Below the pieces are notes generated by a model, which had not been told where the DNA came from, made no database searches, and saw only the letters and a list, made by a program, of their open reading frames with translations. A stretch of 64,000 bases of DNA, taken from positions 13,640,001 through 13,704,000 of the forward strand of contig OX637293.1 of NCBI GenBank assembly GCA_951799445.1. The letters run 5' to 3'. The position numbers were made by a program, and so were the translations under genes. Source of the DNA: Pseudisothecium myosuroides. Taxonomy: Eukaryota; Streptophyta; Bryopsida; Hypnales; Lembophyllaceae. Each line of letters starts with the position of its first letter. Within the stretch, counting starts at the first letter, position 1. This document shows, in pieces, positions 10,299-44,711 of the stretch.

Positions 10299-11193
10299 AT
10301 GGTGCGTCTTCCGAGAGCCCTAGGCCTACTTTCGGGCCTGGCCAGTTATATTGACGAGTGGGTCGACGACGACGGCGTTGACCACCCCTTTGCACCGTGC
10401 GAGGTAAAGTATGGGCCATTGCCTATTCCACAGTGCATCCGGACCTGGTTCACGGCGGCGACGTCTGTGCCCAAGGAAGGATCCTCCTCCATGGTTGAGG
10501 AGGAGGCTGATCTAGAACTCCTAGGGGAGGAACACGGCCACAACCTAGTATCACTGGTAGACGACATTGCGATGGAGGATGTCTACCACCTTCAAATCAA
10601 TGGAACTCAGGAAATGTCCTGGGAGACCATACCATTAGAGGAAGAGATTCTTCCCAACTTGCACTTCCGCAGGACCTCCGAGGGCTTGCAGGTGGGATCC
10701 GATCTACCATCCTACCCCCCGGTACCTAACGATTGGTACCATGGGCCGAGCGATCCGGTCCACGTCCAGGCATCCGATTGGAAAGAAATTGATGTCTCCT
10801 TCCCCGGCGAGGATACTAAGCTGATCAAGGTCGGTATGCACCTCGAAGGCGAAAAACTGGAGGAATACCGAGCCTTAATCATGAAGTATCGGGATGTCTT
10901 CGCATGGTCCTATCTCGAGCTTAGAGGTGTCCCATCTCACATTGTCCAGCATACCATTCCGGTCAAGCCCGACGTCCTGCCAGTACGACAACGGCAGAGA
11001 CGGATGAATCCGTCCCTCCAGCTGATCGTGAAGGCCGAGATCGAACCGTTATTGGCCGCTAAGTTCATCCGACCCGTGGAGATCACCGACTGGGTTTCTC
11101 CCATGGTCTTAATAAAGAAGAAGAACGGGAAACTGCGGGTATGTGTAGATTATCGACAGCTGAACAAGAACACCAGGAAGGACCACTTCCCTT
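10299..11193 (+). pseudogene. Ty3/gypsy pol, 5' part (N-terminal reverse transcriptase), interrupted
   Basis: The frame encodes a spacer and then the first reverse transcriptase blocks: DVFAWSY, FIRPVEITDWVSPMVLIKKK, LRVCVDYRQLNK and KDHFP. The style fits the Athila/Tat side of plant gypsy elements. The frame then enters foreign DNA at 11194 (the giant transposon) and resumes with the next conserved block at 44712. The apparent ORF to 11294 is therefore chimeric at its end. Gag and protease are absent, so this copy was defective before or independently of the insertion. Confidence 0.9.
11186..11193. repeat. Target-site duplication, left copy (CTTCCCTT)
   Basis: The eight bases are repeated exactly at 44704..44711. 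Removing one copy together with 11194..44703 restores an uninterrupted gypsy reading frame. Confidence 0.95.
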
Positions 11194-11205
11194 CAGGGTT
11201 GTCTT
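11194..11205 (+). repeat. Left terminal inverted repeat
   Basis: CAGGGTTGTCTT, perfect inverted match to 44692..44703. Similarity beyond it is patchy (CCCCGAC versus GTCTGAC). Confidence 0.93.
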
Positions 11206-11370
11206 CCCCGACCTGTCGACAACTCGACAAACACGACGTCACAGACAGACATGAGCCCCCCCGTCCGTCTAGTAAAGTCAACTTTTATCCTTGACTTTTT
11301 TTTAATTACCCTCCATTTACCTTAGCCTAGTTGGACGCCATGTGGCATCCACATGGCACAGTGCAAGGGC

Positions 11371-11790
11371 GCATGCGGGTGAAATGGGACTTCGGGTGGA
11401 GGGCGACTGCGGGGGCAAGGCGACCGCGGGTAGGGCGACTTCTCCTCGGGGGCGACTTCGGGTCAAGGGCGACTTCGGGTACAGGCTGGTCCAATTTGGA
11501 CCAGAGGTCGCCCAAGTCGATCCGCGGTCTCCCAGCAGCATGCGCACGCGCCCCGTACCCGCGGTCTCCAACCGGACCAGCACGCGCCCCTTCCCGCGGT
11601 CGCCAGCTCTCCCTGCGCGCGCCCTCCCGCACCCGCGGTCTCCGGACGACCTGCACGCGCCCCACCCGACCCGCGGTCTCCCTGTCGACCCGCACGCGCC
11701 CTTGGACCAGCGGTCGCCAGCCGCGGTCTAGCACCCGACCCGAGTTATTTTCTCGACCTGCACGCGCCCCTTGGACCAGCGGTCGCGTTC
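11371..11790. promoter_or_regulatory. GC-rich motif island 1 (left end and RING gene promoter)
   Basis: From 11390 to about 11480 the plus strand carries GGGCGACTTCGGGT-type units, facing the left terminus. From about 11500 to 11780 the opposite orientation appears (ACCCGCGGTCTCC, CACGCGCCC), facing the RING gene. CTATAAATCC near 11789 is a plausible TATA box. The island thus looks both subterminal and promoter-like. Confidence 0.65.
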
Positions 11791-11962
11791 CTATAAATCC
11801 GTCGCCCGTGTTCTTTTTTGGTACCTTCCTTCTTCACTTGGGCTATACGGCTTGTACCCATTCGTGGCTACATGCGATACCTTAAGTGAAGAAAAATAAC
11901 TATTTTTATTATCTACGGTTGCGGTTTTGGATTTTGGCGAGCCTCACGGTGGACATTTACTC

Positions 11963-14452
11963 ATGGCTAGCACAGGAAACACCAATGGGTCAGTTCCCAT
12001 TTCAGCTGCTGCTCGAAATGCCGGGGCAGTGAGAAAGGCTGCTCTAGACAAGAATCGGAAGCGCAGAGGTACTATACATCGAAAACGATTGCACGTGCTG
12101 AATAGTGCAAATCACCTTGCATTTAAAGGGTGGGACGAGGAGCCCGAACCATGGACATTACAAACCTGCGAAGATTACATTGAATGGTGCCACATCGACA
12201 AGTTATTTCCAGCATGGCGGCATTATCAAAACCGGCACACAAACAAGGCAAACTTGAAGTACTGTGAAAGTCCAGCTTTCCTTCAGAGATGCTTCGAGTT
12301 GTGGCAAGTCCTTTACAAAACCGCCTTCGTGGAAAGAAATGAAGTCCCGCTCTTCCTTGCGAGAGGAGCATATGCTGAGGTGTCACTAAACAAAGAGGTT
12401 GATTGGAGCACGGTCAAGGAAAGTACGTACATTACACGTCCAGAAAACGGTTCCATACCTAAAGGTGTTTTGACTTTTCCAGAGGGTGGACTTGGACCTA
12501 TTCGAAGTACTCCTAAGAATCAACCCCCTGTTCAAATTGAGAGCGCGGAATCCGAAGAGGATGACGATTCGGATGGTACGCGTCTTCCCAGGACAACACG
12601 AGTTGTTGAGGAGTTTTTAGCCCCCATTAACATTCAAAATGGAAGTACAAAGGCAGGGGAAACCTCGCGAGGACGTCATGACAGACCAGCACCAAGGGTG
12701 CGACGTTCAATCAATCGAATTGGAACTGCATCGGTCTCTATGGCGGTTTCAAGACCAGCTGCACCACCACCACATGCGAGCAACGTCTTCGATTTTAGCC
12801 AAGACGAAGACATGGCGACGGAACGAACCGTCCACGTTCTTCTTCCGCAATCTCGAGTACAACCAATTGACGACGTGATGACCTTGGCAAAGGCCCTAGA
12901 CTTCTTGAAGACGAAGGATGCCACCATAGCTTCTCTAGAATCTGATGTGAGCAAACTGCGGTCCGAGTGTGAACACAAGAAGGTCCTCATTTCACAACAG
13001 TCTGTAGAACTACAGCGCCTTCGAGACAAAGAGCGGGAGACTTTCAGTTTGTCGGATATGGATGACACCTTCATTGACCACGATCCACTGCAGCTGGAGA
13101 AGGTAGTAGGGGACTTGACCAGTGACATCCTTCACCGTTCTCCTCCTTCCAAGCGTATCAGGCGTGCTTCATTAATTCCAAGTGCACTTCCTACTGCCAC
13201 CATGATAGATACTACAAATGACACGACTGATCTCCATGGCACCCAAGATTCACTCTCTTTTCCAGCAGTACTACATTCCACACCGTTGGATAAGGATAAG
13301 AAACTTCTTAAGGATAATGGATTGCTTAGAAAGCGTTTGGCTAAGCTGCTGGCAACATACTATCATTGGAAGGTTGCGTGCATTTTAACCGTGGACCGAT
13401 CTCAACAAATCGCAGTGGAATTGGATAAAGTTTCGAAGAACTTTCATGCAAATGCACAGAAACGAGAGAACGGGCTCACATCGTGGGCATTGGTGGAAGA
13501 CATGTTTCCCAATGACATGCCCATGATGGCCGCGCCAGCAAAAAATCTAATCGATTGGGCGCAAAACGGTTGGGACCACGGAAATCAAATGTCCTCCCAC
13601 GACGACATCGAAGGGCGAACGTTGCTTTGGCCGAAGCCTGCTTCTTTTGTCTTGGACCAAACCATGTGTCCTATATGTCAAAACCAATTTGGACCTGAAG
13701 GCGGTTGGGCTCTTGGATCCTGTGCCCATGTCTACCACCCTCAATGCCTCATCACGCAATGTTTGATTAGACGATGTTGCGTTCTCTGCTCAGCACCATT
13801 CCATGATCGTCTGTATGCCATGTTCAATTTGATGACTTACATGCCACCTTCTTGGGAACATAGCGTTGACACAACGGCAAAGCGGAGCTTATGGGGTCGA
13901 GACTTGGTTTGGAGTTGGCGATTGGCCCAACATGACCAAGAAAAGGGACAACCTAGCGCTCAGTTGAATTGGGAAACTGACCCGGCCGAAATTGTTCAAG
14001 TTGCACCAAGGCTGATGGGAAAAGGCCCACAAAATGAAGGAAGGAGGGCATTCTTCTTCCAATGCCTTGGTGGATATTTTGATAAGAGTTCTTCCACCTT
14101 CAAGTGGGGTCCTCATCCTGAAGGGCACCGTTGGAATTTCCAAGGGGAGAGGACGGCCAATAACGATGAAAATGCCTCGTTAGAAGAGTTGAATGATGCG
14201 CAGTACATGGACTCCACGTATGGACCTTATTACTTGAGTCAAGCACTAGACTATTTGTTGGAAGTACACTCTCCGGGGACAACAAGGACCCTCCAAGCTC
14301 TCAAAGACTCCAATGTCTTGGAATCCATTTTGAATGCGGACGGACCAGCTTCACGAACTCATGCCAGGAGGAAGCTTGGGGTTGGAGAGTCATCCAACTA
14401 CGAACGTGGTGAAGGAAGTGGTACTCGAAATGACCCGAATGTTATTGTCTAA
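11963..14452 (+). CDS. CHIDKLFP-domain protein with coiled coil and RING-H2 finger (transposon cargo)
   Basis: 829 residues from ATG 11963; the frame is open further upstream but without an ATG. Residues about 20-165 hold a basic stretch (KNRKRRGTIHRKR) and a domain shared with two other genes of the element (FKGW, CHIDKLFP, RCFE, VDWSTVK). About 305-357 form a coiled coil (SLESDVSKLRSECEHKK). About 569-612 form a RING-H2-like finger: CPIC, then CAHVYH, PQC and CCVLC, giving C-x2-C, C-x-H-x2-H-x2-C and C-x2-C. RING-H2 fingers usually act as ubiquitin E3 ligases; that activity here is inference. The final 190 residues are unassigned. The frame is intact and is preceded by a GC island and TATA box. 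Confidence 0.85.
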   Translation: MASTGNTNGSVPISAAARNAGAVRKAALDKNRKRRGTIHRKRLHVLNSANHLAFKGWDEEPEPWTLQTCEDYIEWCHIDKLFPAWRHYQNRHTNKANLKYCESPAFLQRCFELWQVLYKTAFVERNEVPLFLARGAYAEVSLNKEVDWSTVKESTYITRPENGSIPKGVLTFPEGGLGPIRSTPKNQPPVQIESAESEEDDDSDGTRLPRTTRVVEEFLAPINIQNGSTKAGETSRGRHDRPAPRVRRSINRIGTASVSMAVSRPAAPPPHASNVFDFSQDEDMATERTVHVLLPQSRVQPIDDVMTLAKALDFLKTKDATIASLESDVSKLRSECEHKKVLISQQSVELQRLRDKERETFSLSDMDDTFIDHDPLQLEKVVGDLTSDILHRSPPSKRIRRASLIPSALPTATMIDTTNDTTDLHGTQDSLSFPAVLHSTPLDKDKKLLKDNGLLRKRLAKLLATYYHWKVACILTVDRSQQIAVELDKVSKNFHANAQKRENGLTSWALVEDMFPNDMPMMAAPAKNLIDWAQNGWDHGNQMSSHDDIEGRTLLWPKPASFVLDQTMCPICQNQFGPEGGWALGSCAHVYHPQCLITQCLIRRCCVLCSAPFHDRLYAMFNLMTYMPPSWEHSVDTTAKRSLWGRDLVWSWRLAQHDQEKGQPSAQLNWETDPAEIVQVAPRLMGKGPQNEGRRAFFFQCLGGYFDKSSSTFKWGPHPEGHRWNFQGERTANNDENASLEELNDAQYMDSTYGPYYLSQALDYLLEVHSPGTTRTLQALKDSNVLESILNADGPASRTHARRKLGVGESSNYERGEGSGTRNDPNVIV

Positions 14453-19862: not shown

Positions 19863-21353
19863 CTAAGTTGCTTTTCTGCGTGGGAGGAAGTCACTCCACA
19901 TAGGCTCCGGGCCTATTTCCTCTAATTCTGGACCGGTCTTTCCTTCGGTATCCTTATACCACCTGTACCACTTGAAACGATAATCATTCTCGGCCTTTAG
20001 ATCAAGAAGCTCATTGGCCAATAAATGTACTCTCTGGTCACGCAACTGTACGCACTTTTGAAGCATTGCTAATTCCTCAGGATTACAACCATACCCAGAG
20101 GCTGCAGCCTCAGCATCCACGTTCGGGATGTCATGGACGGCGGCATCAAAATATTCTTTCTCTTTCTCTTTTATTTCAAGATTTAAGCTTCGCTTCTTGT
20201 TCTCTACTTGACGACGTCTGTGTTGAAGGGTTTCTAGTTTAGATTGCCATAAAAGATAGATGTCCACTGTGAACTCTTTTCCACTTTCAAGTTGTTTGAC
20301 ATACAAATCTCTATTTCTCTTCAATTCCACAAAATCCTTCTCATTTTGTTCAACGATGTTCACCAAAGCCTTCACTCGTTGCTTCAACACATCCACGGCG
20401 GTCGGATTCGCTTCACGCGCCTTTAAATTCTTCAATTGCTCAGTCTTGGCACGCAGAGCAAACCTTGTACTATCAATTTTTGCAATCAACAAAGTTCTAT
20501 CATCTTCTAAATCGCTTTCACTACCACTCTGCAGCTGCTCTTGCAAAGAGGGGTTTGTTTGTACAGCCTGGGCCACATCTTCCATGACTTCATCAGAGCA
20601 AGGGGGAACTACGATGGGATCTTCGACCCTTTTCCTCTTCTGGTGAACTCCCAAGTCGCCCTTGTCTAGTTCTTTCATGACGACATCTTCATCGTCACTA
20701 TGGAAAGAGTAGCCATCATACTCATGTGTGTGCTCATCTGAGCTAGAAGTAGCTGACCACTGTACCAAATCATCCGGAACAAATGACTTTCCACGCTTCA
20801 CGGAGGTCAACATCTTTGTCAAATCAATTGGTTTGTCTCCCGCCAAAATTGATGCGTTCTCTGGATGCACTCCAATGGGGATTTCCTTTAGTGTTGTCCA
20901 ATCCACCTTCTTCTTCAATATAAGTTCAGCATACACCATTCTCACAAGATAGAAACAGAAATTATCGTTTCGGTAAGTTTCAGACTCCAAGTACAATTGT
21001 TGCCATACCTCGCAGCATCTAATCATGAAGTCTTGGTCCTTGGAGTGTGCAAGATTTGCTTTGTTCTGCTTCACGTGTTGCTTATGACGACACAGAGGAA
21101 ATAACTTGTCAATGTGGCACCAATCCACATATTTTTGAACCGTTTTGTAACTCCAGGGTTCAGGTTCAGTTCTCCAACCCTTGAAAGCCTTGATCTTAGG
21201 GTTGAGCAAGATGGGCACACGCTTCTTGTGGTTCTTTCCTTTCCGTTTTCGAAGCTTGTCACGAATGGCCTTCTTCTCTAAGGCAGTGAGTGGCTCACTT
21301 TTGGAAGGGGGCGATGGTTCAAGCTCGTTCTCCATAGTGATTACTTTGTACAT
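19863..21353 (-). CDS. CHIDKLFP-domain coiled-coil protein (transposon cargo)
   Basis: 496 residues from the first ATG (21353). A second ATG at 21335 has a better context (A at -3, G at +4) and would give 490. A Lys/Arg-rich N-terminus (RKRKGKNHKKR) leads into the shared domain, residues about 50-165: AFKGWRTEPEPWSY, WCHIDKLFP, NKANL, VYAELILKKKVDWTTLK. An acidic middle follows, then a long Lys/Glu-rich coiled coil (about 275-410). There is no RING finger, unlike the paralogue at 11963. A basic N-terminus with a coiled coil suggests an oligomeric DNA- or chromatin-binding protein, but no known family is recognised. The frame is intact. Its GC island and leader block lie upstream at 21582..21905. 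Confidence 0.85.
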   Translation of the reverse strand: MYKVITMENELEPSPPSKSEPLTALEKKAIRDKLRKRKGKNHKKRVPILLNPKIKAFKGWRTEPEPWSYKTVQKYVDWCHIDKLFPLCRHKQHVKQNKANLAHSKDQDFMIRCCEVWQQLYLESETYRNDNFCFYLVRMVYAELILKKKVDWTTLKEIPIGVHPENASILAGDKPIDLTKMLTSVKRGKSFVPDDLVQWSATSSSDEHTHEYDGYSFHSDDEDVVMKELDKGDLGVHQKRKRVEDPIVVPPCSDEVMEDVAQAVQTNPSLQEQLQSGSESDLEDDRTLLIAKIDSTRFALRAKTEQLKNLKAREANPTAVDVLKQRVKALVNIVEQNEKDFVELKRNRDLYVKQLESGKEFTVDIYLLWQSKLETLQHRRRQVENKKRSLNLEIKEKEKEYFDAAVHDIPNVDAEAAASGYGCNPEELAMLQKCVQLRDQRVHLLANELLDLKAENDYRFKWYRWYKDTEGKTGPELEEIGPEPMWSDFLPRRKAT

Positions 21354-21581
21354 TAAACGCTACTCCAAATACTATGCCAAATGGGGATGCACAAGCACTT
21401 GTTCTACGAGAGGGACACTACAACCCCCTTGACCTTCACATTTACAAAAATACAATCATAAACATTTACAACCACAATCTATTCTAGAAATAATCTCGCG
21501 TAATTTACGGTCTATGCACCGGAATGGAAGAACCCGAGTTGAAGAAGGACAAAATATCCCCCCCCAAACCAGGAATCCCCT

Positions 21582-21616
21582 CACGGGCATGCAGTCAGCC
21601 ACTTCGAGGTGGGTGA
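21582..21616 (-). promoter_or_regulatory. Conserved leader block upstream of the 19863..21353 gene
   Basis: On the gene's strand it reads CACCCACCTCGAAGTGGCTG followed by ACTGCATGCCCGTG. It is almost identical to 26511..26545 before the kinase gene and related to 34913..34950 before the other coiled-coil gene. A G-run and T-run follow in each case. It is probably a core promoter or transcribed leader element. Confidence 0.7.
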
Positions 21617-21629
21617 CAGTCATCGCGCA

Positions 21630-21905
21630 GAGGGGACGACTGACGACCGCCAGTCCAGGAGACTCCTGAAGTACCCGAAGTCGCTATGGGGCGAGTGCGG
21701 GTCCCGCCCAGCCGAAGTCGCCCGATTGGTACCCGTCTGAATGATACCCGAGGTCGTGGGGTGAGTGCGGGTCGGGAGGTACCCGAGGTCGTGGGGCGAT
21801 TGCGGGTCGGGAGGTACACGAGGTCGTTGGGGCGACTGCGGGTCGGGAGGTACGCGAGGTCGCTGGGGCGACTGCGGGTCGGGAGGTACCCGCGGTCTCC
21901 ACTGA
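21630..21905 (-). promoter_or_regulatory. GC-rich motif island 2
   Basis: Several units of GACCCGCAGTCGCCC type, read on the minus strand toward the gene starting at 21353. The distal edge abuts a repeat end (CCTACCTTA, 21906). Confidence 0.75.
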
Positions 21906-22150
21906 TAAGGTAGGAGGTCCTATATTGGAGCATTTAAGGGCTGGAACTGAATTTTGAGGAGGTAAAATATCTTGAAATTTTTTTCAGTCAATTTTCCTTG
22001 AAAAACAGATTGAACTGACATCTAACCCAAGTGGTTTCATATTTTTTCATGCTTTTTTGAATTAGTTAAAAAAATTTGAAGTTGAAATGGCATAGGGCTG
22101 TAAAATGGTGCCCTACCTAAAATGTACACAATCTGTACATTGATGGAGGC
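21906..22150 (-). repeat. TAAGGTAGG-type MITE, truncated copy
   Basis: Starts TAAGGTAGGAGGTCC and matches, in inverted orientation, 57018..57348 (complete) and 43895..44168. The inner end is lost near 22150. Confidence 0.7.
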
Positions 22151-23394
22151 TATGAAAAAAACTTTTCCAGCACATTGCGGGACTAGCTTTTTTATTTTGA
22201 ACATTTTTTACTTATATGTTTTCTATTATAGGCCTATAGGGCTTTGAACTTTAAATCTTAATAGTGAAGAACTCAGTTGAGCCGACTTGAGCGTCTAGAG
22301 AAAGAATATATTCAAGAAAACTTAATTTTAATTCTCCAAAAAAATGTCAAGTACAAGTAGGTATGAGATAGAAGGAAAATCTGAAATATTAAATTCTGAA
22401 ATATAGAATTAAAATGCACTAATACCAATGGTGAGTTGGTGACATTGCTCTAGCAAGCAAAACAAAATATAGGCTTTTCTAGTCCTTACAAAACGTGAAG
22501 TTTTATCTTTCAACATCTTAGGAAAAAAACACGTATGTACTATTACTTGTGCACTTTAGACAATCTGTCGGAAAATGGGTTGAAAACATATATAAAAAAA
22601 TTACACCAATTTTTTTTTTGTATTCACTTGTAAATAACTTGTAAAATTGAAGGTAGTACTGAATGAAAGATAAAACTAATATGCTATTAATTTTTGGAAG
22701 AATTTGAAAATTGTTAATTTCAATGGTGAGAATATTCTAATAAAAAATTAATATCTTTTATTTTCATTTTCATTTCAAAATTTCAAAATCAAGAGCAAAA
22801 GATGACTTCAAATGTTTTTTCTACCTTAAAAAACCGCAATATAAAACTCCTCATAACTCTTACCTCATTATTTGAAATTGAGTGGTTCAATTTTTTGGAG
22901 GTAGGGATCAATCTACAGAATTCCAAATAAATATTTTTTATTCTTACAAAAATTAAATTTTGTTGTCCTGTTTGCCATTGAAATGGAAAAAAAATCTAAC
23001 TTTTGCATTACTTATTGGAATGACACGAAACAAAGCTTCACATGTACATTATGATAAATAGCATCCGTCCTAAAAGTTTCATGCAAAAATTCCAAATTAT
23101 AAAGTCAATAGAGCCTGCCCAAATTCTCAAAAAGCCAAAAGTCGGCTCCTTGGTAGTTTAGGGGTTAATGAAAAAACTTCATGTGTTGCAGTCAGGAATG
23201 CTAAGAACTTAGATGGACAATTTCATTAAAATGCTGGTATTCCAAGTGCCACGGAGATGGTGTGCCATTTTCACCATCTAGGAGAGATATAGATTTAGAA
23301 CAGCTGTTTTGAATTGTTTTCATGCCATTTTAAAATAATATTGCCATTTAAATGAAATTGCCCATTTAGGTCTTGAAGACCTCATTATTATTAT
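22151..23394. other. AT-rich spacer, no gene
   Basis: No coding signal. The first 300 bases are an inverted relative of 18560..18900. A TTTAGGGGTTAA string near 23155 marks another TTAA-type repeat end. Confidence 0.45.
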
Positions 23395-24838: not shown

Positions 24839-26424
24839 CTACACGACAGAATCCCGGAAAACTAATTCGGGAGGCTTCATCAACCACGGTTTACCCATGA
24901 GCATGTCCACCACTTCAGCGCATGTTCGTCTTTTTTGAACATCAGGCTCGGTAAGTTCGCGTAGCTTCATCGCAAAGTATCGTTGTGTGTTGACATTTAT
25001 GAATAAGTCCGCATCGAAGTCGTGCCCATTTCTAATTTTCATCGACTGGGCCAGCTTTCCTATAGAAAACGAATCCGACTTCACCGTATATTTGTGTGTT
25101 GCTTGCATCATCTCTAGGCTCCTTTCCGGGTCTTCATTTGAATACATATAGAACAACTCCGGAGCCACCCACCATTTTCCTTTGAAGTAACGATCCTTGT
25201 CTTCTTCTCTTCTATATGCATAATGTGAGGCGTATCCTTCATGAATGCGACTAGCAAGTCCCCAATCACAAATCCCGATGTTGATAACGTCTTCCGAGTA
25301 TCCCGGAAAATGAAACAATACGTTTTGAGGGGACAAGTCATTGTGTAGCACCCCTGCTTGGTGCACAAGACTTGTGACATACACCAAAGCCCAAGCCAAC
25401 TTCGCCTTGTGCCTTCGGTACAAGCTAATTTTTTGTACCTCTTCCCCTGTAAGTTCCTTCACCAGCTTGATTTGATTCCATTCAGCATGTGGCACCACCT
25501 TGTCGTTGAGAACAATCATGTTCTTCAAATGACCACCATTCCACCATAATGTGTACGCCTCCATTGTATAGTCATGGACAGCCAAGAATTTAATAATGGC
25601 TGGATGATTCAATGGACAGGCAAGGGCCTCTGTGGAACGATCCACCCTTGCCTCACGCGGGTTTGTTGCTTTTGACACTTTCCCTGCAAATGTACATGTC
25701 GCGGGATTATATCCATTCCTTCAATGCGTACTTTGCGCACCTTCCTGTATCCACCTTGGTTGTCGTATCCAGTGAGGCCAACAACTTGAGCCTCTCTCGA
25801 GATCCACGTGACACATGATGCACCATCCTTAGACAATTGAGCCTTCAATGCAGTAGCAAGCCATCCGATACCCCTAGTTTGTTGTCTTGACAATCTTTTT
25901 ACTGCGTCTTGCCACCACTCCATCTTCTGGCGAAACTCCCTTGCCGCCTCCCCATCTGGAAATCCGGGCACAAGAGGGCGCAACTCAAGCATCAATCTCT
26001 TAGTGTTGAATATGCATGCTTGCTGACAGTTTGATATCCAAGTGTGAATTCGATTATGGTACACATCTTGCACGTCCTTATATTCCGCATTCTCATTGCA
26101 CTTTTCCGTAATTAGAGCCAGGAAATCATCCTTCAACTTCTCAATGCCTGGCCCTTTATTTCTCAAGTACTTCTTCTCCAAATACTGGGTGCTTTTTTCC
26201 TCGTACCATTGCAAAGCCATCCTGTATACAAAGGTCGTATATCTTGGCGGAGGATAATCCGGATCCTTCTCGTTTGCTGTCCTTGGCTTTTTTGGCTTTG
26301 ATGGACCCGCGCCCCCTATTTGCCCACTTGCAGATATATCCGGAAGAAACTGACTAGGATTGTCAAGGTCCCTATCCCAAATAGAGATCCGTGATGTACT
26401 GCTCCCTTCCCGTGGATCAGACAT
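24839..26424 (-). CDS. Protein kinase-like cargo protein with one frameshift
   Basis: ATG at 26424. The first frame runs to 25609 and the second continues to TAG at 24839. They join near 25697, within about 10 codons of the kinase VAIK-type lysine (FAGK, second frame). Residues about 50-190 are an unassigned helical region rich in W, K and E. The kinase part has a Gly-containing strand (NQGGYRKVRKV), a catalytic loop HNDLSPQNVLF (HND for the usual HRD), a metal motif DWGLA (for DFG), APELF (APE) and SDSFSIG. Key Asp and Asn residues are kept, so an active fold is possible. The shift could be a 1-base loss, an assembly error or, less likely, a very short intron (TTTGCAG acceptor at 25684..25690). 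It is a unique neighbour of the CHIDKLFP genes with the same promoter type. Confidence 0.75.
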
Positions 26425-26510
26425 GGTTGTTGTTAGTGATAGTGATCGCTTTCTTCAACTTCGGGCGTAGAAACTGCAAAAATTTCCCCCCCTCAACTCC
26501 CCCCTTGGCC

Positions 26511-26554: not shown

Positions 26555-26795
26555 CGCAAGGCCAAGAGTGGTGACTCCGGGTCTAGGCGACCGCATATAT
26601 ACTCGAGTTCGCATTGGGGCGCGTGCAGGTCTTAGGGCGACCGCGGGTTTGGGCAACCGCGGGTTCCCGCGCCAAGTGGCGACTGTGGGTTTCTGCGGAG
26701 ACTGGGCGACTTCGACTGTGACAGTAGGCGACCTCAGGTGCGGCAGCAAGCGACTTCGGGTAGGGCGACTTCGGGTAGGGAGACCTCTGGTACTG
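26555..26795 (-). promoter_or_regulatory. GC-rich motif island 3
   Basis: Repeated TACCCGAAGTCGCCC-type units on the minus strand, pointing at the kinase gene. Two tandem copies are clear at about 26750..26785. Confidence 0.75.
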
Positions 26796-27157
26796 GAGGG
26801 CCTTTTTTCATTTTTTAACTTCTTGCCAAAGTGGCGATATAAAATGTTAGAGTGGTGCTCCAAATGTCAACATTAATCCACATATTGGAAAGAAAATATC
26901 CAATTTGCACATATTACATGTCTATAACTCTATATTGATCCACCACTTGGCAATTTCGTACAATAATTTTTTGTAGGTCGGAGTTTCCAGGTGAAAAAAT
27001 CTCCAATTGGCCGAATACATTGAGCAAACTACTTAAAAAAAGGCTAACAGGTGCGCAAACTCTAGAAAGGTCAATTTACAACCTCAAGCAATGACTCCCA
27101 CTTTTAGTCTCGGGTTAGAAAAGACCTCCGGCTTGTCGCCCGTCATTAAATATTTAA

Positions 27158-30404: not shown

Positions 30405-31125
30405 TCTTCCACCCGAGGCCGCCTCGGACCCGCAGTCGCCCTTGGTCGCCCACCCGTAGTCGCCCTCTGACCAGCACTCGCCCTGTGACCCGAAGTCGCC
30501 TCTTCAAAGAACAATTGTCGCCACTTTTTTGTGGCACTTCCTGCACCAGCGTTCCCCCTCTGATCCGCACTCGCCCTGTGACCCGAAGTCGCCCCTCCAA
30601 AGAGCAATTGTCGCCACTTGGTTGTGGCACTTCCTGCACCAGCGTTCCACAAGGACCCGCACTCGCCCTGTGACCCGAAGTCGCCCATTCAAAGAGCAAT
30701 TGTGGTTGTGGCACTTCCTACACCAGCGTTCCACAAGGACCCGCACTCGCCCTGTGACCCGAAGTCACCCGCAATTGTCGCCACTTTTTTTTGGCACTTC
30801 CTGCACCAGCATTCGACAACGACCCGCACTCGCCCTGTGACCCGAAGTCGCCCCTTCAAAGAGCAATTCTGGACACATTTTTGGGCACCTCCTGCACCAA
30901 CGTTCGACAAGGACCCGCACTCGCCATGTGACCCAAAGTCGCCCCTTGAAAGAGCAATTGTGTCTACATTTCTGTGGCACTTTGTGCACCAGCGGTCGCC
31001 AAGTCCCGCACTCGCCCTGTGACCCGAAGTCGCCCTCACCGAGGAACGATTTGTGGGCACCATCTGTGCCAATTTCTGCAGCAGCGGTCGACAAGGACCC
31101 GCACTCGCCCTTGGTCCACCAAGCC
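30405..31125 (+). promoter_or_regulatory. GC-rich motif island 4, without a gene
   Basis: About seven tandem units of roughly 85-95 bp, each with CCGCACTCGCCCTGTGACCC, GAAGTCGCCC and CACTTCCTGCACCAGCG. Orientation points right, but no gene follows before the minisatellite. ORFs across it on both strands are by-products of the repeat. Confidence 0.7.
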
Positions 31126-31306
31126 AGACACTAAGGTAACAGCTGCAGGATTCCCTAAACCGAGGTTGTGTAGGTGCTCCCTATTCCATAGTTCTGTAAA
31201 GGAATTTTGCATTAAATGATCCCTGTGAATTCCTTGTGAAGGAATATTGTGTCAAAAAGTGAACTACAATTTAGTTACAATTTAGTTTAAAGTATAAAGT
31301 CCTCTC

Positions 31307-31759: not shown

Positions 31760-33830
31760 CTTCTCAAACCCACTTAGGATTAAAAAGGGGAAGGAGTAGA
31801 AACAAATGCAAAGTGATGGAACTATTATTCATTTCATTCAAACCCACTTAGGATTAAAAAAAAATGGGGAGGGAATAGAAACAAATACAAAGTGATGGAC
31901 TTATTATTCATTTCATTCAAACCCACTTAGGATTTAAAAAAATGGGGAGGGAATAGAAACAAATACAAAGTGATGGAACTATTATTCATTTCATTCAAAC
32001 CCACTTAGGATTAAAAAAAATGGGGAGGGAATAGAAACAAATACAAAGTGATGGAACATTTATTCATTTCATTCAAACCCACTTAGGATTAAAAAATATG
32101 GGGAGGGAATAGAAACAATACAAAGTGATGGACTTATTATTCATTTCATTCAAACCCACTTAGGATTAAAAAAAAATGGGGAGGGAATAGAAACAAATAC
32201 AAAGTGATGGAACATTTATTCATTTCATTCAAACCCACTTAGGATTGAAAAAAATGGGGAGGGAATAGAAACAAATGCAAAGTGATGGAACTATTATTCA
32301 TTTCATTCAAACCCACTTAGGATTAAAAAAAATGGGGAGGGAATAGAAACAATACAAAGTGATGGACTTATTATTCATTTCATTGAAACCCACTTAGGAT
32401 TAAAAAAAATGGAGAGGGAATAGAAACAAATAAAAAGTGATGGAACATTTATTCATTTTATTCAAACCCACTTAGGATTAAAAAAAATGGGGAGGGAATA
32501 GAAACAAATACAAAGTGATGGAACATTTATTCATTTCATTCAAACCCACTTAGGATTAAAAAATATGGGGAGGGAATAGAAACAACACAAAGTGATGGAC
32601 TTATTATTCATTTCATTCAAACCCACTTAGGATTAAAAAAAATGGGGAGGGAATAGAAACAAATACAAAGTGATGGAACATTTATTCATTTCATTCAAAC
32701 CCACTTAGGATTGAAAAAAATGGGGAGGGAATAGAAACAAATACAAAGTGATGGACTTATTATTCATTTCATTCAAACCCACTTAGGATTAAAAAATATG
32801 GGGAGGGAATAGAAACAAATACAAAGTGATGGACTTATTATTCATTTCATTCAAACCCACTTAAAATTAAAAAAAATGGGGAGGGAATAGAAACAAATAC
32901 AAAGTGATGGAACATTTATTCATTTTATTCAAACCCACTTAGGATTAAAAAAAATGGGGAGGGAATAGAAACAAATACAAAGTGATGGAACATTTATTCA
33001 TTTTATTCAAACCCACTTAGGATTAAAAAATATGGGGAGGGAATAGAAACAAATACAAAGTGATGGACTTATTATTCATTTCATTGAAACCCACTTAGGA
33101 TTAAAAAAAATGGGGAGGGAATAGAAACAAATACAAAGTGATGGAACATTTATTCATTTTATTCAAACCCACTTAGGATTAAAAAATATGGGGAGGGAAT
33201 AGAAACAAATACAAAGTGATGGACTTATTATTCATTTCATTCAAACCCACTTAAAATTAAAAAAAATGGGGAGGGAATAGAAACAAATACAAAGTGATGG
33301 AACATTTATTCATTTCATTCAAATCCACTTAGGATTAAAAAAAATGGGGAGGGAATAGAAACAAATACAAAGTGATGGAACTATTATTCATTTCATTCAA
33401 ACCCACTTAGGATTAAAAAATATGGGGAGGGAATAGAAACAATACAAAGTGATGGACTTATTATTCATTTCATTCAAACCCATTTAGGATTGAAAGAAAT
33501 GGGGAGGGAATAGAAACAAATACAAAGTGATGGAACATTTATTCATTTCATTCAAACCCACTTAGGATTAAAAAAAATGGGGAGGGAATAGAAACAAATA
33601 CAAAGTGATGGAACATTTATTCATTTCATTCAAACCCACTTAGGATTAAAAAATATGGGGAGGGAATAGAAACAAATACAAAGTGATGGAACATTTATTC
33701 ATTTTATTCAAACCCACTTAGGATTGAAAGAAATGGGGAGGGAATAGAAACAAATACAAAGTGATGGAATTATTTAGATGGAGTTATTTTTCATTATGTT
33801 CAAATGCACTTAGAATTAAAAAAAAATGGG
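31760..33830. repeat. Minisatellite, about 78-bp unit, about 27 copies
   Basis: Unit core: AACCCACTTAGGATTAAAAA, GGGGAGGGAATAGAAACAAA, TACAAAGTGATGG, TTATTCATTTCATTC. Variants (AAAAATGGGG with AACATTTATTC versus AAATATGGGG with ACTTATTATTC) recur in ordered groups, suggesting higher-order units made by repeated unequal exchange. The last copies (33800 on) are degenerate. Confidence 0.92.
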
Positions 33831-34477: not shown

Positions 34478-34862
34478 ACCCGCAGTCGCCCACACCCGCA
34501 GTCGCCCCAGAGCCGCAGTCTCCGTTCCCCGACGTCACCCGACTTGCACGCGCCCTCGGACCCGCAGTCGCCCCAGACCCGCGGTCTGTGCTGCCCGCGC
34601 TGGACGTCACCCGACTTGCACGCGCCCTCGGACCCGCAGTCGCCCCAGACCCGCGGTCTCCGTTGCCTGCGCTGGACGCACCCGACCTGCACGCGCCCTC
34701 GGACCCGCGGTCGCCCAGGACCTATGCACGCGCCCTCTGGCGACCTCGGGTTGTTGCTGATCGGAGGTCGTTGCCCTGACGTGCACGCGCCCCGAGAACC
34801 TCGAGTCAGTGTCAGACCCGCGGTCTCCTTCACCCGCACTCGCCCCAGGGCGACCTCGGGTA
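34478..34862 (+). promoter_or_regulatory. GC-rich motif island 5
   Basis: Several GACCCGCAGTCGCCC units plus a tandem block (GACGTCACCCGACTTGCACG, CGCCCTCGGACCCGC) upstream of the gene at 35074, all in the direction of transcription. Confidence 0.75.
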
Positions 34863-34912
34863 CTTAAGAATTGACTGGCCCTCATTCTGCACACTTCCTG
34901 CGCTGTGCAACG

Positions 34913-34950: not shown

Positions 34951-35073
34951 GTGTGGGAGGTTGGGGTCTAAACTCTTGCAATTTTTTTCCGTGGGCTTAC
35001 ACTCTACTGTTTTATTGTACTTTGGATACAACTCTATTTTAATTGACTACGTGCGTAACCAAAAACATTCACG

Positions 35074-36615
35074 ATGGATCCGAGCTTGAAGAAGAAAAAA
35101 CCAAAAGGAGATCGCCACCATAGGCGGCGTCTCGTCCTTATAGACCCAACGGTGGTGGCATTCCGAGGTTGGCGTAGCATCCAAGCAGATTGGACCTTGA
35201 CAACTTGCAAGGCATTTGTGGGATGGTGCCATATCGACAAGTTGTTCCCTTACCATCGGCACAGGCGCCATTTGAACCAAAACTATGCAAACCTACATTA
35301 TTGCAGAGATGACGCATTCGTGCAACGGTGTATCGAGGTGTATAGATTTTTATACGGAACACAAAGAATTCCACGAAGCGAAGTTGGGTTGAACATATGC
35401 CAAATGGTGTACGCAGAACTACAGTTGAATCGGACGGTGGATTGGAGGACCATAAAGGCATCGAAGAAAATCTCCATTCCAACAACTAGAGACATCCCGA
35501 GGGCGGGCCCTTCTATTAATCCACGGCAGGGGCTAGGGCCAAAGAAGAATATCAAAGACCTAGTGGCTGATGTAAACTATCAGTGGTCAGATTCATCTAA
35601 CGTAGACAGTTCGGATGATGAGGTTGGTCCCGACCCCGTGCACAGGATGGAAGACCCACCAGTGGAAGGAAATTTATCACTAGTAGTACCGGAAGAAGGG
35701 GACATGAGAGGTGCCCTCGTGATTTACGTGGAACCACTCATAGCAGTTGAACCAGTGCAAGGCACTCAAGCAAATTTGGACGAAGTACCTTGGGATGTGC
35801 ATGCACAGATGCATGAAAATGTGGAGGACAGATTTGAGGGTGAAATTATAACGCAACAAAGGATTGTGCCTTCCTTGCTACAAGAACGTGATGTTGTACT
35901 TTCGGATTACAGTATTCGGCGAACAAAAAAGTCTTATAAAGAGGTGCTGAAGAAGCTTCTAAAAGACTTAGAAGAAGAACAAGAGAAGTGTGAGATTTTG
36001 CAAGACCGGATGGCAAAGGATGTTGAGGCCGACGATGTCCACGCTCTTGAAGCACTAATTCAAAGCGGGCAAGTTCATTTGTCGGTCCAGCAAAAGGAGA
36101 TGGAAGAGTTGGAAGAATTTTACCTTAAATTCAAGAAGGGTCAAGATGGAGGGTCAAGCTCAAATGCCAACCCACTAGTGGAGGAACGTCTTCACAAAAT
36201 TATGGAAGACTGCAGAATGGAAGAGAATCGAGGAATCGAAGAAAGGAAAAGTGTGGCAGAGGCACAATTAAGGTTGAATCACCTCAAAGAAATGAAGGAC
36301 CATGCAACCGTTGACCGGGCTTTGCATTTGAATGCGGCATATGAGGATGTGCAACATCAAATATCTGCATTAGAGGTAGCTGACTTGAAAAAGAAGTTAG
36401 CTTCTTTGAAGAGATTGGAAGCCAAGTATGAGGAAAGCATATCACAAGAGAAGCAAAAGATCAATATACGGAAATTGCACAAGAAAGTATGGCTCCAGAA
36501 TAAACTGTGGACCTATGGCCGCTACCATGAGAATCAAGCGGAGGCGTACAGAGTGGCTGAAGCCGAGTTAGCAAAGAAGAAAAGAGAAGAAGAAGGCCAC
36601 ATGGATGTTGCATGA
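35074..36615 (+). CDS. CHIDKLFP-domain coiled-coil protein, second paralogue (transposon cargo)
   Basis: 513 residues from ATG 35074 (G at +4, A at -3). A basic start (KKKKPKGDRHHRRR) leads into the shared domain, residues about 25-135: FRGWRS, WCHIDKLFPYHRH, NYANLHYC, RCIEVYRFLY, VYAELQLNRTVDWRTIK. An acidic linker follows, then a long Glu/Lys/Leu coiled coil to the C-terminus. The layout matches the gene at 19863..21353, so the two are paralogues; the RING gene at 11963 shares only the N-terminal half. It probably forms dimers and binds nucleic acid through the basic end, but no known family is recognised. The frame is intact. Confidence 0.85.
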   Translation: MDPSLKKKKPKGDRHHRRRLVLIDPTVVAFRGWRSIQADWTLTTCKAFVGWCHIDKLFPYHRHRRHLNQNYANLHYCRDDAFVQRCIEVYRFLYGTQRIPRSEVGLNICQMVYAELQLNRTVDWRTIKASKKISIPTTRDIPRAGPSINPRQGLGPKKNIKDLVADVNYQWSDSSNVDSSDDEVGPDPVHRMEDPPVEGNLSLVVPEEGDMRGALVIYVEPLIAVEPVQGTQANLDEVPWDVHAQMHENVEDRFEGEIITQQRIVPSLLQERDVVLSDYSIRRTKKSYKEVLKKLLKDLEEEQEKCEILQDRMAKDVEADDVHALEALIQSGQVHLSVQQKEMEELEEFYLKFKKGQDGGSSSNANPLVEERLHKIMEDCRMEENRGIEERKSVAEAQLRLNHLKEMKDHATVDRALHLNAAYEDVQHQISALEVADLKKKLASLKRLEAKYEESISQEKQKINIRKLHKKVWLQNKLWTYGRYHENQAEAYRVAEAELAKKKREEEGHMDVA

Positions 36616-38288: not shown

Positions 38289-38462
38289 AGCTTAAAAAAA
38301 GCCTATTTCATTCAACATTATGTACAAATCTTTAAATGGATAAAAAATGCAATTTGTAAGCTTTCAGTACCCAAGAGTATACATTAAAAAATCTGAACCT
38401 GTGTCCATATTTGAACCCATAAATGCCAAAGGCCTTTTTTGAGCCTCTAGGAATTTCCTCTA

Positions 38463-39010: not shown

Positions 39011-39087
39011 ATTGCCGACACCAGAATTTGGTGCCTTGAGCATTTAGGGGTTAAGGGAAAGGAGGCGGAAACAGGAAAAATTATTAT

Positions 39088-39091
<4 letters not shown>

Positions 39092-39119
<28 letters not shown>
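39092..39119 (+). repeat. Poly(A) tract, 28 bp
   Basis: A pure A-run following (TTA)n, directly at the edge of motif island 6. It could be a retroposon tail or simple slippage. Confidence 0.8.
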
Positions 39120-39121
<2 letters not shown>

Positions 39122-39312
39122 ACCCGAGGTCGCCCTCTTCGTACCCGAGGTCGCCCTTGCTAGAACGCCGGTCACCTTCCTTGACCCGAAGTCGCCCCCC
39201 TCCTGACCCGAAGTCGCCCCATTCAACGTGCTCCCGCGTGCGGCCAGAGTAAGACTGTTGGTGTTTTGAGGTCGCCTGGAGTGAGCCGCAGTCGCTGATT
39301 GGGCGACCTCTG
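39120..39312 (+). promoter_or_regulatory. GC-rich motif island 6 and transposase promoter
   Basis: Units GACCCGAGGTCGCCC and GACCCGAAGTCGCCC point to the transposase gene. ACTATAAAGC at 39328..39337 is a good TATA box, and a CCCTTGAAGCGGGTGGCTTT string at about 39470 is a weak relative of the leader block. Confidence 0.7.
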
Positions 39313-39563
39313 GTGCAAGTAAGAGTAACTATAAAGCCCAGAGGGCCACCATTTCCTTCCCACCTTGCTCCGTTGACGAACTCACGACTTGAAACTTCTA
39401 AAGAGGCTTCCTGCGGACTTCAGATCTTCGGAGGGCAACAACCTTGCTTTGAGGGGTTTGAAAGACCCCTTGAAGCGGGTGGCTTTGTCATAACTTTTTT
39501 CGATACTACACGTTGCTGGATTATATTTTTTTTGAGTGAAAGACCTTGTAGACAATCACCAAT

Positions 39564-42500
39564 ATGGCTAATCGAGTTGTTGGGAGGACCAATGGTAATG
39601 ATACACGGAGGGCCACAAGGGAATGGGACCCTTGGTTGGTTTTGGAAACTGATCCTAACAAAGCCACAAATTCGAGGACATGCGTTTTTTGTGGATGGAA
39701 CAATGTCTTCGTACGGAAGAGGGCTCTCATGCACTTTGGATATGGAGGCAACCCCTCATCGGATCGTTGTAAACGTGCTCCGCGGTTAGTATTGGAGAAG
39801 TTCAGGAACTGTGAGGGGATTGTCCCAAAAGAAATGCTTTATGAAGAGATGTTTGGGGTGATTGAGGAAGGTGAGTCCGTTGCTGCGCCCGTTGCTGTGC
39901 CTATTGTGGCCTTGTCAGCAGAAGAATCCGCAGATCCTGTCGACACGAGCGAAATGCGGCCTTCTAATCCAGATTCGGTTGATTCTACTCCAGCAACACT
40001 TGTGAGAAGGAGGAATACTCCTTCCATTTCTCGCCAAATGAGCATGGATGAGGCGTTACAGGTGGGTGTCAGACAAAAGTTGGATACGATGTGGGCCTCT
40101 TTCTTCTACGAGGCCAACATTGCTTTCAACGTCGTGCGTCATCCAGCCTTTGTAAAAGCAGTGAAGGAAACGGCGGCAGCTGGATTAGTGTATCAACCGC
40201 CATCATACAACGCGGTGCGCACCAAAATGATAGATGTGAAGAAGGTTGCAGTTTCGAAGATGGTGTCAGAGCGGACAAAGCAGTCTATTGAGTTTTATGG
40301 AGCGACCTTTTGTTCAGATGGGTGGTCTGATACGAATTCTCGTCCGTTGTTGAATATAATGCTTGTGTGTCCTGCCGGCGATGTATTTTTGGGATCTGTT
40401 GACACCACTGGAGAGAGGAAGGACATTGCCTATACAACGAATACGATGGTGCAGTACATAGAGGAAGTTGAACCTAAGAACATTGTCCAACTATGTACGG
40501 ACAATGCAGCAGTGATGACGGGGACCCTGGCAAAATTGGAAGAAAAGTATCCTCACATGTTCAGGCAGGGATGTGCAGCGCACATTATGGATTTACTTAT
40601 GGAAGATTGGGGTAAGGAGAAGAGGGTTTCGGATCTAGTGACCAAGTGCCAAGCTATCGTGAAGTTCATCAAGAAGTACCATCATACCTTGGCTCTCTTT
40701 CGGAAGTATTCACCAAAATTGTCATTGCGACTTCCTTCCAAAACACGCTTCGCAGTGAACTTCCTCATGATAGACCGTTTGGTGGATTGCAAGCAAGCAT
40801 TGTTATCCGTGATTTCGGACGAGTCGTACGAAGCGTTTGAGAGTAGTTTGTTTTATCGGAAGAATGGTCAAGTGGTCAAAATGCGAGCGCGTAAAGCTCG
40901 AGAAGACATCCATTCGGAAGCGTTTTGGCAGGAATGTGCCAATTATCAGTACCTGATGAAGCCAGCTCTCTTAGCCCTTCGAGTGTTTGATGGAAAAGTT
41001 CCGGCAATGCCCCAAGCTTGGATGGTAATGCACGACCTGAAGCTCCATGTTTACTCTCTCCATGATGAGCCGTACTTTCTAGATGACGCAACAGCGGCAA
41101 AGTTCAGAAAGCAATTTGATGCTTGATGGAAACTGATGCATACTGACCTCCATTTTGCTGGGGCATTACTTAACCCATATTTGGCCGAAGTAGCAGTCAT
41201 TCACAACAATGGCGAGGCCAAGCGAGCCTTGAATCGAGTTATACGAAAACTAAGCGAGCCATTGGGAGTATCGGAAGATGATGCAATGAGCGAGTTGACG
41301 GAATTTGAAGAAAAGACAGGCCCATTCGACCCCTTACAGGAGGCTCCTGATATCACCCGCTGTAAACTACTGCCTCATCAGTGGTGGAATCGTGTGGGTG
41401 GCAATGCTCTTCCAAAAATTGCTAGGAGAATTTTGTCTTTGACATGTTCAGCATCATCATGTGAAAGGAATTGGAGCATGTATTCGTTTGTGCACAGTAA
41501 AGTGCAAAACCGTTTGACTACATCTAAGGCTGAAGCATTGGTGTATATCTACACCAACAGCAAACTAGCACGGGAGAAACGTGGAAAAAATCCTGCTGAA
41601 TTTTACGAAAAGTATTTGGAAGATGCAGATACAGACGAAGAGAACGAGGAGCCATTGTCCTCAGGATCTGAAGATGAAGTTGTACGAACGGCAGCACGAC
41701 AGGCTGAAAATCGTAGGGAGGTAGAGGAGCGTTTACACGGAAATAGATGGGCTGGATTGGTTCCTCCACGAGACAGTCCTCCACGACGACGACGACCTTA
41801 CGCAAACACATTTGTAGGTGGTGCTGATGAGAACAGTTTGTCAGAGGAGGAAGATCGACGCACACCTGACCGACCCCATGTCTCTGCTTGGGATGCATTT
41901 CCAATAATAAATTCACCGCCATTGAGGGCCAGAACTCCTGAGGACAACAATGAAGGTGTAGATATTCCAATGTCACAGGAAGTGGAACATGCCACGTCTC
42001 CCATATCAACTCTTCCATCCTTCAGCAGACCAGTGACTCGTCAGGCCGTTGCAGCAGTTACTATGCCAGTTACCGTAGAAAGTGAAGGGCAAGAGGAGGC
42101 AACACACGAAGAAGAGGTTTTGCCTGCAGGCTGTCCAATTTCTGCAGCACATAGCACTCCAACAACAGTAGATGCAGACGACGATGACGATTTGCCATTG
42201 GGAACTCTCTTGAACAGGAATCGTAACGCGTCTTCTAATCGAGGAGCAACCAGGGACGTTGCTAGGGCCAGGAGGTCTATTCCAACCCTTCCGACAAGGC
42301 CGGAGCTGAGTCAAGGTCCAGTGCAGAGCGTTGATGAGGAAGTCCGAGGCTCAGCTCCTCAAGCCACTCAGCCTTCATTAAGGTTTGGCCCTGGAGAATC
42401 GTCATTGGGAACGTGTGCACGTAAATCAAAGAAATGTTTTAGGAAGACGGATGACAAGAGACAGCGCAATCCTAAACGGCCCAACCAAGTTGTCCAGCGA

Positions 42501-42824
42501 TTTATTATAGGCGCAAGTAATTCCATCGTAAACCCTGGACAATCAAGCGGAGAAGCTGCACGACACCCTGCATCTAACACTGATGGAATCACTGATACAT
42601 TGAGGTTGGTTAAACGTTTGGTGTCCACTCAAGTACCCGGTGGTATAGACACTCAAGTGCAAAACCTAAATTCCGAGGTAGAACGTGAGCTACAACAAAT
42701 ACCAGTACCACGAGAAGAGGACGAGAACGAGAGCTCTGGCGATTACGAGCACACAGATTCACCGCGTGAAGACACGGATCCTGAAGCTGATGAAGTGTCT
42801 AGCGATGATACATTCACCCTATAA
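39564..42824 (+). pseudogene. hAT transposase, one in-frame TGA
   Basis: ATG 39564. The frame runs 520 codons to TGA (41124..41126) and continues in the same frame to 42824. A BED-like zinc finger (CVFCG, H, DRC) lies at residues about 40-75. A DUF659/RNase H-like core at about 205-330 carries FCSDGWSD and CTDNAAV acidic residues and GCAAHIMDLLM. The hAT dimerisation region at about 604-680 carries WWNRVGG, LPKIARRIL and SCERNWS. The last 350 or so residues are an acidic, low-complexity tail, longer than usual. The TGA falls just before the conserved WKLMHTDLH block, so it truncates the dimerisation domain unless read through. CGA to TGA at a CpG is the simplest cause. Start context and promoter are intact. 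Confidence 0.9.
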
Positions 42825-43894: not shown

Positions 43895-44168
43895 ACACTA
43901 CTCATACATGTTGCTTTTTCATAGCCTTCACTAGTATTCAAATAGTGTACATTTTAAAGAGTGGGCGAATTTAGAGCCCTATGCCACTTAAACTTCAAAT
44001 TCTCACAAGTAATTCCAAAAAGCTCCAAAAAATATGAAACGACTTGGGTTACATGTCAATTCTTCTTGTTTTTCAAAGAAAATTTACTGAAAAATCTTTT
44101 GAGATGTTTCACCTCCCCAATATTCAATTTCAGCTCTTAAATTAGCAATTTCTGGACCTCCTACCTTA
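43895..44168 (+). repeat. TAAGGTAGG-type MITE, partial copy
   Basis: Matches 57018..57348 in the same orientation, ending CCTACCTTA at 44168, directly against motif island 7. The left end is missing. Confidence 0.65.
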
Positions 44169-44515
44169 GTTCAGTGGTCGCCTCTAAACCCGCAGTCGCC
44201 CCGGACCTGGGACCCGCAGTCGCCTTTGTATGTGCGACCCGGAGTCGCCCTGACGTGGGACCCGCAGTCGCCCTTGTATATGCGACCCGAAGTCGCCCCA
44301 GACTCTAAACCCGCAGTCGCCCTTGTATCTACGACCCGAAGTCGCCCCGGACCTGGGACCTGCAGTCGCCCATGGATTTGGTACCCGCAGTCGCCCAGTG
44401 TTTTTTACCCGCGGTCGCCCTCAATTTCAGACCCGCGGTCGCTCTCATTTTAAAAGCCGCAGTCGCCCAGGCAGCACCCGCACGCGCCCTGACCCGAAGT
44501 CGCCCTTCATGACGT
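44168..44515 (+). promoter_or_regulatory. GC-rich motif island 7 (right subterminal region)
   Basis: About ten units, GACCCGCAGTCGCCC, GACCCGAAGTCGCCC and variants, at a spacing near 30 bp, pointing to the right terminus. No gene of the element follows. Mirrored by the outward units of island 1 at the left end. Confidence 0.75.
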
Positions 44516-44691
44516 GGACATGGCAGTCTTGGGAGCCAGCCACGTAAGACAGTTTTTTTACCGAGGGGTAAAAAAAACCAAAACCCTAAAACCTTACTCG
44601 ACGACTTTGTCGCCCACACTTGACATTTGTCATACGCGACATCCGACGTCAGACGAACAACACGACGACCAAACCCCAAAACGTGTCAGAC

Positions 44692-44703
44692 AAGACAACC
44701 CTG
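44692..44703 (-). repeat. Right terminal inverted repeat
   Basis: AAGACAACCCTG, the exact complement of 11194..11205. Confidence 0.93.
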
Positions 44704-44711
44704 CTTCCCTT
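44704..44711. repeat. Target-site duplication, right copy (CTTCCCTT)
   Basis: Exact copy of 11186..11193. The gypsy frame resumes here. Confidence 0.95.

Follow-up and report, generated by a model that had tools for sequence, protein, structure and literature searches.

The window, as we call the whole 64,000-nt stretch analysed here, lies on contig C7 of a 388-Mb genome and carries a giant hAT-type transposon with many relatives in this plant genome, which occur in many copies and usually with the same companion genes. The genome is recognised as a plant's by five matches above cut-off to SAM_LFY, the LEAFY domain, whose family is not known outside plants. The element put forward in the original prediction is real, and it is a lineage instead of one element. 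We put at roughly 0.78 the probability that the window copy is a 33.5-kb hAT transposon of autonomous type, damaged here, which comes from a lineage of giant multigene hAT elements and whose companion genes serve the element and not the host. Typical hAT elements are a few kb long and hold little besides the transposase. The gene set found here comprises a hAT transposase, a protein kinase and a RING-like protein (c1), plus two further proteins (c2 and c3) with the N-terminal domain of c1. The features are as follows (position in the window, strand, description).

10284..11193, +, interrupted gypsy pol frame, left part (host site)
11186..11193, no strand, left target site duplication CTTCCCTT
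11194..11205, +, left terminal inverted repeat CAGGGTTGTCTT
11388..11740, no strand, GC-rich motif array, subterminal and 5' of c1
11900..14452, +, gene c1, an 850-residue open frame with an N-terminal CHIDKLFP domain and a RING-like zinc finger
19863..21359, -, gene c2, a 498-residue frame with an N-terminal CHIDKLFP domain
21598..21933, no strand, GC-rich motif array 5' of c2
24839..26454, -, protein kinase gene (Pkinase E=4.7e-12), frame broken
26600..26866, no strand, GC-rich motif array 5' of the kinase
30420..31180, no strand, GC-rich motif array with no recognised gene adjoining
31764..33774, no strand, 78-nt tandem array, about 26 units
34478..34860, no strand, GC-rich motif array 5' of c3
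35059..36615, +, gene c3, a 518-residue frame with an N-terminal CHIDKLFP domain
39122..39218, no strand, GC-rich motif array 5' of the transposase gene
39552..42824, +, hAT transposase (DUF659 and Dimer_Tnp_hAT, long C-terminal tail), one in-frame stop
44188..44503, no strand, right subterminal GC-rich motif array
44692..44703, -, right terminal inverted repeat
44704..44711, no strand, right target site duplication CTTCCCTT
44712..46714, +, interrupted gypsy pol frame, right part (RT, RNase H, integrase)

The predicted boundaries are confirmed. The 8-bp target duplication is exact at 11186-11193 and 44704-44711, the inverted repeat just inside it (11194-11205 vs 44692-44703) matches at 12/12 positions, and removal of the insert with one duplication restores a gypsy frame of 970 codons, free of stops and with a continuous RT motif; when the gypsy flanks are joined with both duplications retained, a stop appears at about residue 313. 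Between the duplications the element measures 33,510 bp. A de novo scan of the window for exact 8-bp repeats next to 12-bp inverted ends with at most two mismatches returned many low-complexity pairs and only two pairs at 12/12, the element's own among them; the other (15883/33327) is AT-rich and ends within the 78-nt tandem array. In the whole genome, 26 of the best 40 left-end matches (of 131 candidates) start exactly at 11194.

Together with the best 40 of 214 right-end candidates, these matches could be paired by us at no fewer than 16 loci besides the window with both ends on one strand. Ends were inspected at 12 of the 17 paired loci, namely the window, the C11 9.71-Mb copy (fetched whole) and ten others. 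Eight pairs, seven of them independent, have 8/8 duplications (window, C11 9.71 Mb, C1 6.95-7.01 Mb, C3 9.39 Mb, C11 5.74 Mb, C3 13.84 Mb and two C7 loci) and two more have 7/8 (C11 0.60 Mb and C5 4.91 Mb), as is typical of the hAT superfamily; the pair at C11 6.15 Mb is doubtful, reaching 7/8 only after a 3-base shift, and no duplication was seen at the C11 0.95-Mb pair. The two C7 loci (C7:11337779-11348265 and 11381852-11391019) are short copies that face opposite ways and do not differ in their printed flanks or duplications; they probably represent one insertion followed by an inverted duplication. The terminal inverted repeats match at 12/12 positions in the window copy and 11/12 in the C11 9.71-Mb copy, and are more decayed in some others. 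An assembly artefact fusing unrelated pieces has a negligible chance of being the explanation, for the same interior recurs between the same ends on different contigs with different duplications.

The hAT transposase that had been predicted inside the element is confirmed by Pfam, with DUF659 (E=1.2e-32) and Dimer_Tnp_hAT (E=8.4e-8) both above the curated cut-offs. SDGW, CTDNA, CAAH and CERNWS are present in it as candidate landmarks that may correspond to the catalytic D, D, CxxH and E residues of hAT transposases. Protein c1 shows a RING-type pattern, and its Pfam matches fall below the curated cut-offs. The N-terminal stretch common to c1, c2 and c3 is roughly 120-150 residues long, has the core CHIDKLFP and is 39-50% identical among the three (tblastn). 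No domain was assigned to it by Pfam, PHROGs or PDB searches, Pfam found no domain common to any two of nine c-type proteins, and a PDB profile search gave weak matches only, the best (E=0.048) over the C-terminal part; it is a new domain.

Companion genes are linked to the transposase across families. Among the best 82 of 356 transposase candidates (some genes give two matches, and the family letters are ours), 16 matches are 86-100% identical to the window transposase (family A), 44 are 57-69% identical (family C) and 22 are 38-42% identical (family D and others); 15 of these last 22 are stop-free in the matched stretch and 12 have a listed 1076-residue open frame. A search with c3 gave 83 rows, sorted by eye into 61 c3-type and 22 c1-type matches. 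A listed transposase match lies within 15 kb downstream on the same strand in 44 of the 61 c3-type matches, and in none of them in any other arrangement, compared with a mean of 0.5 and a maximum of 3 in 300 runs of random placement on the same contigs (three contig sizes were guessed); at the remaining 17 no listed transposase match stands at the expected place. Counted from the best 82 of 356 transposase matches, c3 lies within 15 kb upstream of 6/16 in family A, 36/44 in family C and 0/22 of the D type. The linkage of c1 and c2 rests on the fetched copies and the 22 c1-type rows, 13 of which have a listed transposase match within 70 kb downstream.

The kinase extends this linkage further. 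Its search returned 138 rows, of which 89 were used, short pieces and weaker rows being left out. Among the same best 82 of 356 transposase matches, a kinase lies within 30 kb of 10/16 in family A (86-100%), all upstream on the opposite strand, of 33/44 in family C (57-69%), 30 upstream on the opposite strand and 3 otherwise, and of 19/22 of the D type (38-42%), where 17 are downstream on the opposite strand and 15 of these at 5.8-5.9 kb. The family D kinase that was fetched has one stop in its frame; over 233 residues it shares 32% identity with the window kinase, and it retains the HND and DWG motifs. Many of the weak rows left out show 21-25% identity in frames about 506 residues long, have no noted transposase match, and may represent a further family. 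At family D loci (e.g. C2:10766933, C4:33127226 and C6:24339395) the convergent kinase stands about 5.9 kb downstream at near-constant spacing, and the family looks young. A 619-residue frame upstream of a family D transposase (locus L054) was considered as a companion and rejected; it has 71 matches at 96% identity or more, itself included, and is therefore part of an abundant repeat, probably an adjoining LTR element. A fourth family, B, lies within the kinase gene of the copy at C11 0.60-0.65 Mb, starts with CAGGGTTGTC and has frames for its own transposase (33-38% identity), a RING-like protein (28%), a CHIDKLFP-like protein (30-39%) and a kinase-like protein (24%); its right end was not found, and by eye there is LTR-like sequence near the expected place.

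These observations bear on the description of the companions as cargo genes, which must be given up. They are largely a fixed set whose order and orientation are kept beside transposases only 57-69% identical, and since c3 and the kinase recur beside these, and the kinase also at 38-42%, "cargo" is the wrong word. It is unlikely that the element is a Starship-like one whose companions were captured and kept for helping the host; its large size and its extra genes with kinase and RING-like folds would fit such an origin, but the same genes return in the same order and orientation next to divergent transposases, and a Pfam scan of seven internal ORFs found no tyrosine recombinase (DUF3435) captain. 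Starships of fungi are likewise giant and multigene, and are mobile, but they are built of a tyrosine recombinase captain and variable accessory genes, unlike the window element (available portions of PMC12506042 and PMC10175614). The proposed parallel with Starships consequently falls away, as the absence of a tyrosine recombinase among the seven ORFs leaves nothing that ties the element to them. The accessory genes are a recurrent set that most likely serves the element, and the linkage suggests that they travel with hAT elements of about 30 kb as servants of the element, not as random cargo.

In a large protein collection, relatives of the c-type proteins and of the transposase were scored among the roughly 8,000 best candidates. 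Six c-type relatives, at 39-66% identity to c3, and 53 relatives of the transposase were found, mostly from unnamed sources; the kinase N part has three relatives in this collection. Eight of the transposase matches carry an organism name: seven are plants at 25-33% identity and one is a Bacilli bacterium bin, with 61% over 42% of the query, which we take as putative contamination. A former virus, or a viral gene set that took up a hAT transposase, is a quite improbable source of the element. The multigene layout, the kinase, the RING-like protein and the common promoter-like arrays would suit it, but a search of a viral contig collection with two short c-type patterns gave 45 stretches matching one pattern and no confirmed c-type relative, PHROGs gave a single weak match (E=0.07), and no capsid or polymerase was found among the seven internal ORFs scanned. 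The same Pfam scan of these ORFs found none of the Polinton/Maverick genes (DNA polymerase, capsid, retroviral-type integrase). Teratorn, a piggyBac element with herpesvirus genes, is also giant and rich in genes and has a transposase of cut-and-paste type, but neither its piggyBac transposase nor its viral genes were matched in the scanned ORFs of the window element (as Teratorn is described in part of PMC10175614).

The original prediction passed its own test, which asked for another copy with both ends and the internal genes: two were located in the same assembly. Both are complete, one of 31.4 kb at C11 9.71 Mb and the other of 33.3 kb at C3 9.39 Mb. Each has its own 8-bp duplication, agrees with the window copy in the order and orientation of all five genes and reaches, by segment, a protein identity of about 89-95%; they cover 84.6% and 86.7% of the window element, respectively. 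Five copies besides the window's were fetched, three of them in part; 30,514 of the 33,510 bp are common to at least one of the five, and 27,099 bp to both complete copies. Most of what is not covered is the region of the 78-nt array, at 2,253 bp, together with three pieces 186-273 bp long. The large size is thus not mainly due to nested elements. That a hAT element of a few kb was swollen by nested insertions, or that two elements enclose host DNA as a macrotransposon, is accordingly very improbable: five genes recur in order, and no further copy of the 12-bp end with up to two mismatches was found inside the element, nor do the ends enclose unrelated host sequence as in macrotransposons or Pack-type elements, the gene set and its order recurring between copies and families. 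Such insertions do occur in the two longest copies (C1, 60 kb, and C11 0.60 Mb, 52 kb), and small insertions and the tandem array are peculiar to the window copy. Paired loci are 9.2 kb to 60 kb long; the shortest has the ends and 22 motif sites and, among the queries tried, kinase-like remnants only, and the match of the C4 copy is limited to the first 4.8 kb of the element.

Contig C11 (16.9 Mb, 4.4% of the genome) holds 21 of the best 40 left ends and 13 of the best 40 right ends, where 1.7 of each would be expected (the end lists are ranked best-first). It may be a sex chromosome or another low-recombination chromosome.

The GC-rich motif ACCCG[CA][AG][GC]TCGCC has 40 sites in the element and none in the window's other 30.5 kb. 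The sites form seven clusters: every one of the five genes has a cluster 5' of it, the right end has another, and the seventh has no recognised gene beside it. The 900 bp 5' of the genes contain 20 of the 40 sites (p=1.6e-8), the right end nine and the single geneless cluster 11. This p-value and the one below are guides only, because the patterns were picked after inspection and clustered sites are not independent. The geneless cluster (30420-31180) is the largest, and may mark a lost gene or a non-coding RNA. Family B has no site of the window motif in 21.5 kb and instead its own motif, CCGTCCGCC; four of its genes have 9 of the 10 sites in the 900 bp on their 5' side (p=9e-7). At the family C locus L055, clusters of ACCCGAGGTCGCC lie 5' of c3 and 5' of the transposase, and at another family C locus, L056, there are three sites of the window pattern only, all before c3, and related CGGTCGCCC sites before both genes. 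These private motifs before genes suggest shared regulation. The 78-nt array of the window did not align in the five other fetched copies; a 78-nt array with a similar GGGGAGGGAA core upstream of c3 is present at L055 (43-2300), and the transposases of these two array-bearing families are about 66% identical. L056 has a 31-nt array in place of the 78-nt array.

We infer biochemical roles for the accessory genes and a regulatory role for the arrays as follows. The DDE transposase would cut and paste at the inverted repeats, aided by the subterminal arrays; the element-encoded transposase or a CHIDKLFP-domain protein might recognise the common motif before each gene and switch the set on and off together; and the kinase and the RING-like protein may act on host or element proteins and so permit or time transposition. 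Tentatively, and at somewhat less than even odds, we further propose that the giant hAT lineage has a regulon of its own, in which the private GC-rich motif of each family would be at once a subterminal transposase-binding repeat and a promoter element for all its genes. The timing of movement in the plant would be controlled by the element's own kinase and RING-type protein, and one family, in which most frames are intact and the genes are spaced almost constantly, may still be moving at present.

The window copy is itself damaged. Its transposase has an in-frame stop at 41124-41126 that is absent from three compared copies, which led us to reject a conserved readthrough stop, and its kinase has a one-base frameshift near 25.66 kb that is absent from five aligned copies; an intron in the kinase was rejected, the frameshift being peculiar to the window copy. 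Stops or frameshifts interrupt several frames of both complete copies and occur somewhere in most of the family A genes compared, the stops of other copies differing from those of the window. Activity of family A is consequently putative at most, the window transposase and kinase being broken and most compared genes damaged.

In 24 of 25 comparisons of the window copy with other copies, dN/dS was 0.10-0.53. The values were 0.26-0.53 on six longer alignments of c1 and 0.10 on a 54-codon piece, 0.32-0.43 for c2, 0.37 and 0.51 for c3, 0.26-0.45 for the kinase N part, 0.31, 0.33, 0.51 and 1.05 for the kinase C part and 0.24-0.40 for the transposase. Neutral simulation with the non-coding substitution spectrum and one divergence per gene gave mean dN/dS of 0.76-0.90 and 1% points of 0.36-0.52, and was unstable for the kinase C part (1% point 0.19). 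With the 54-codon piece left out, 14 of 24 values fell under the neutral 1% point and 10 did not; those under it were 3/6 for c1, 3/3 for c2, 1/2 for c3, 2/4 for kinase N, 0/4 for kinase C, and 3/3 and 2/2 for the transposase parts. The companion genes look constrained about as much as the transposase, by a limited test in which every comparison includes the window copy as one common reference.

The element resembles Ac, Tol1 and Tol2 of the hAT superfamily in its 8-bp duplication, short inverted repeats and DUF659 and hAT dimerisation domains. It differs in scale: Tol1 and Tol2 are 4.4 kb and 4.7 kb long with their transposase, whereas the present elements are about 30 kb long with at least four further genes, and maize Ac elements of up to 22 kb are also mentioned (PMC10175614, in the portion available). 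The 14-kb ToxhAT of fungi was formerly described as a hAT with a cargo gene and is now, by its 2-bp TA duplication, regarded as a likely non-autonomous element of Tc1/mariner type (available part of PMC12506042). Giant KDZ, EnSpm and Sola-1 DNA transposons, from over 10 kb up to about 30 kb, occur in Ectocarpus and other algae, and many of them carry additional genes; KDZ and EnSpm giants are enriched on the Ectocarpus sex chromosomes, hAT elements make up 0.05% of that genome, and nested insertions are common there (PMC12477816, in the sections available). These algal giants and the window element are alike as large DNA transposons with extra genes, but their transposase superfamilies differ (same sections of PMC12477816); in Pfam, the matches of our transposase frames were to hAT-type domains, with none to anything KDZ-like. 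The main text of a review of giant transposons never uses the word hAT (PMC6431247), and we found no report of a giant multigene hAT of such kind in the open-access literature, most subscription papers lying outside this scope. Giant KDZ and EnSpm elements with accessory genes are already known from algae; a giant hAT whose gene set is conserved appears to be a new variant.

A lineage with a kinase, a RING-like protein and a new domain family kept next to its transposase would demonstrate that a life cycle of many genes, possibly regulated together, can arise in a cut-and-paste transposon of plants. It opens to experiment both the service of accessory proteins to a DNA transposon and the reason why giant elements gather on particular chromosomes.

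Some other repeats and frames were seen in the window. A 200-nt direct repeat, 97% identical (10099-10298 and 54607-54806), is possibly related to the interrupted gypsy element. The segments 21906-22159 and 57095-57348 are inverted copies, 94% complementary, and are about 76-77% related to part of the element's right end region, forming a small repeat family. Finally, a frame with a Myb/SANT-like DNA-binding domain (PF13837, E=6.4e-8) lies at 538-1233.
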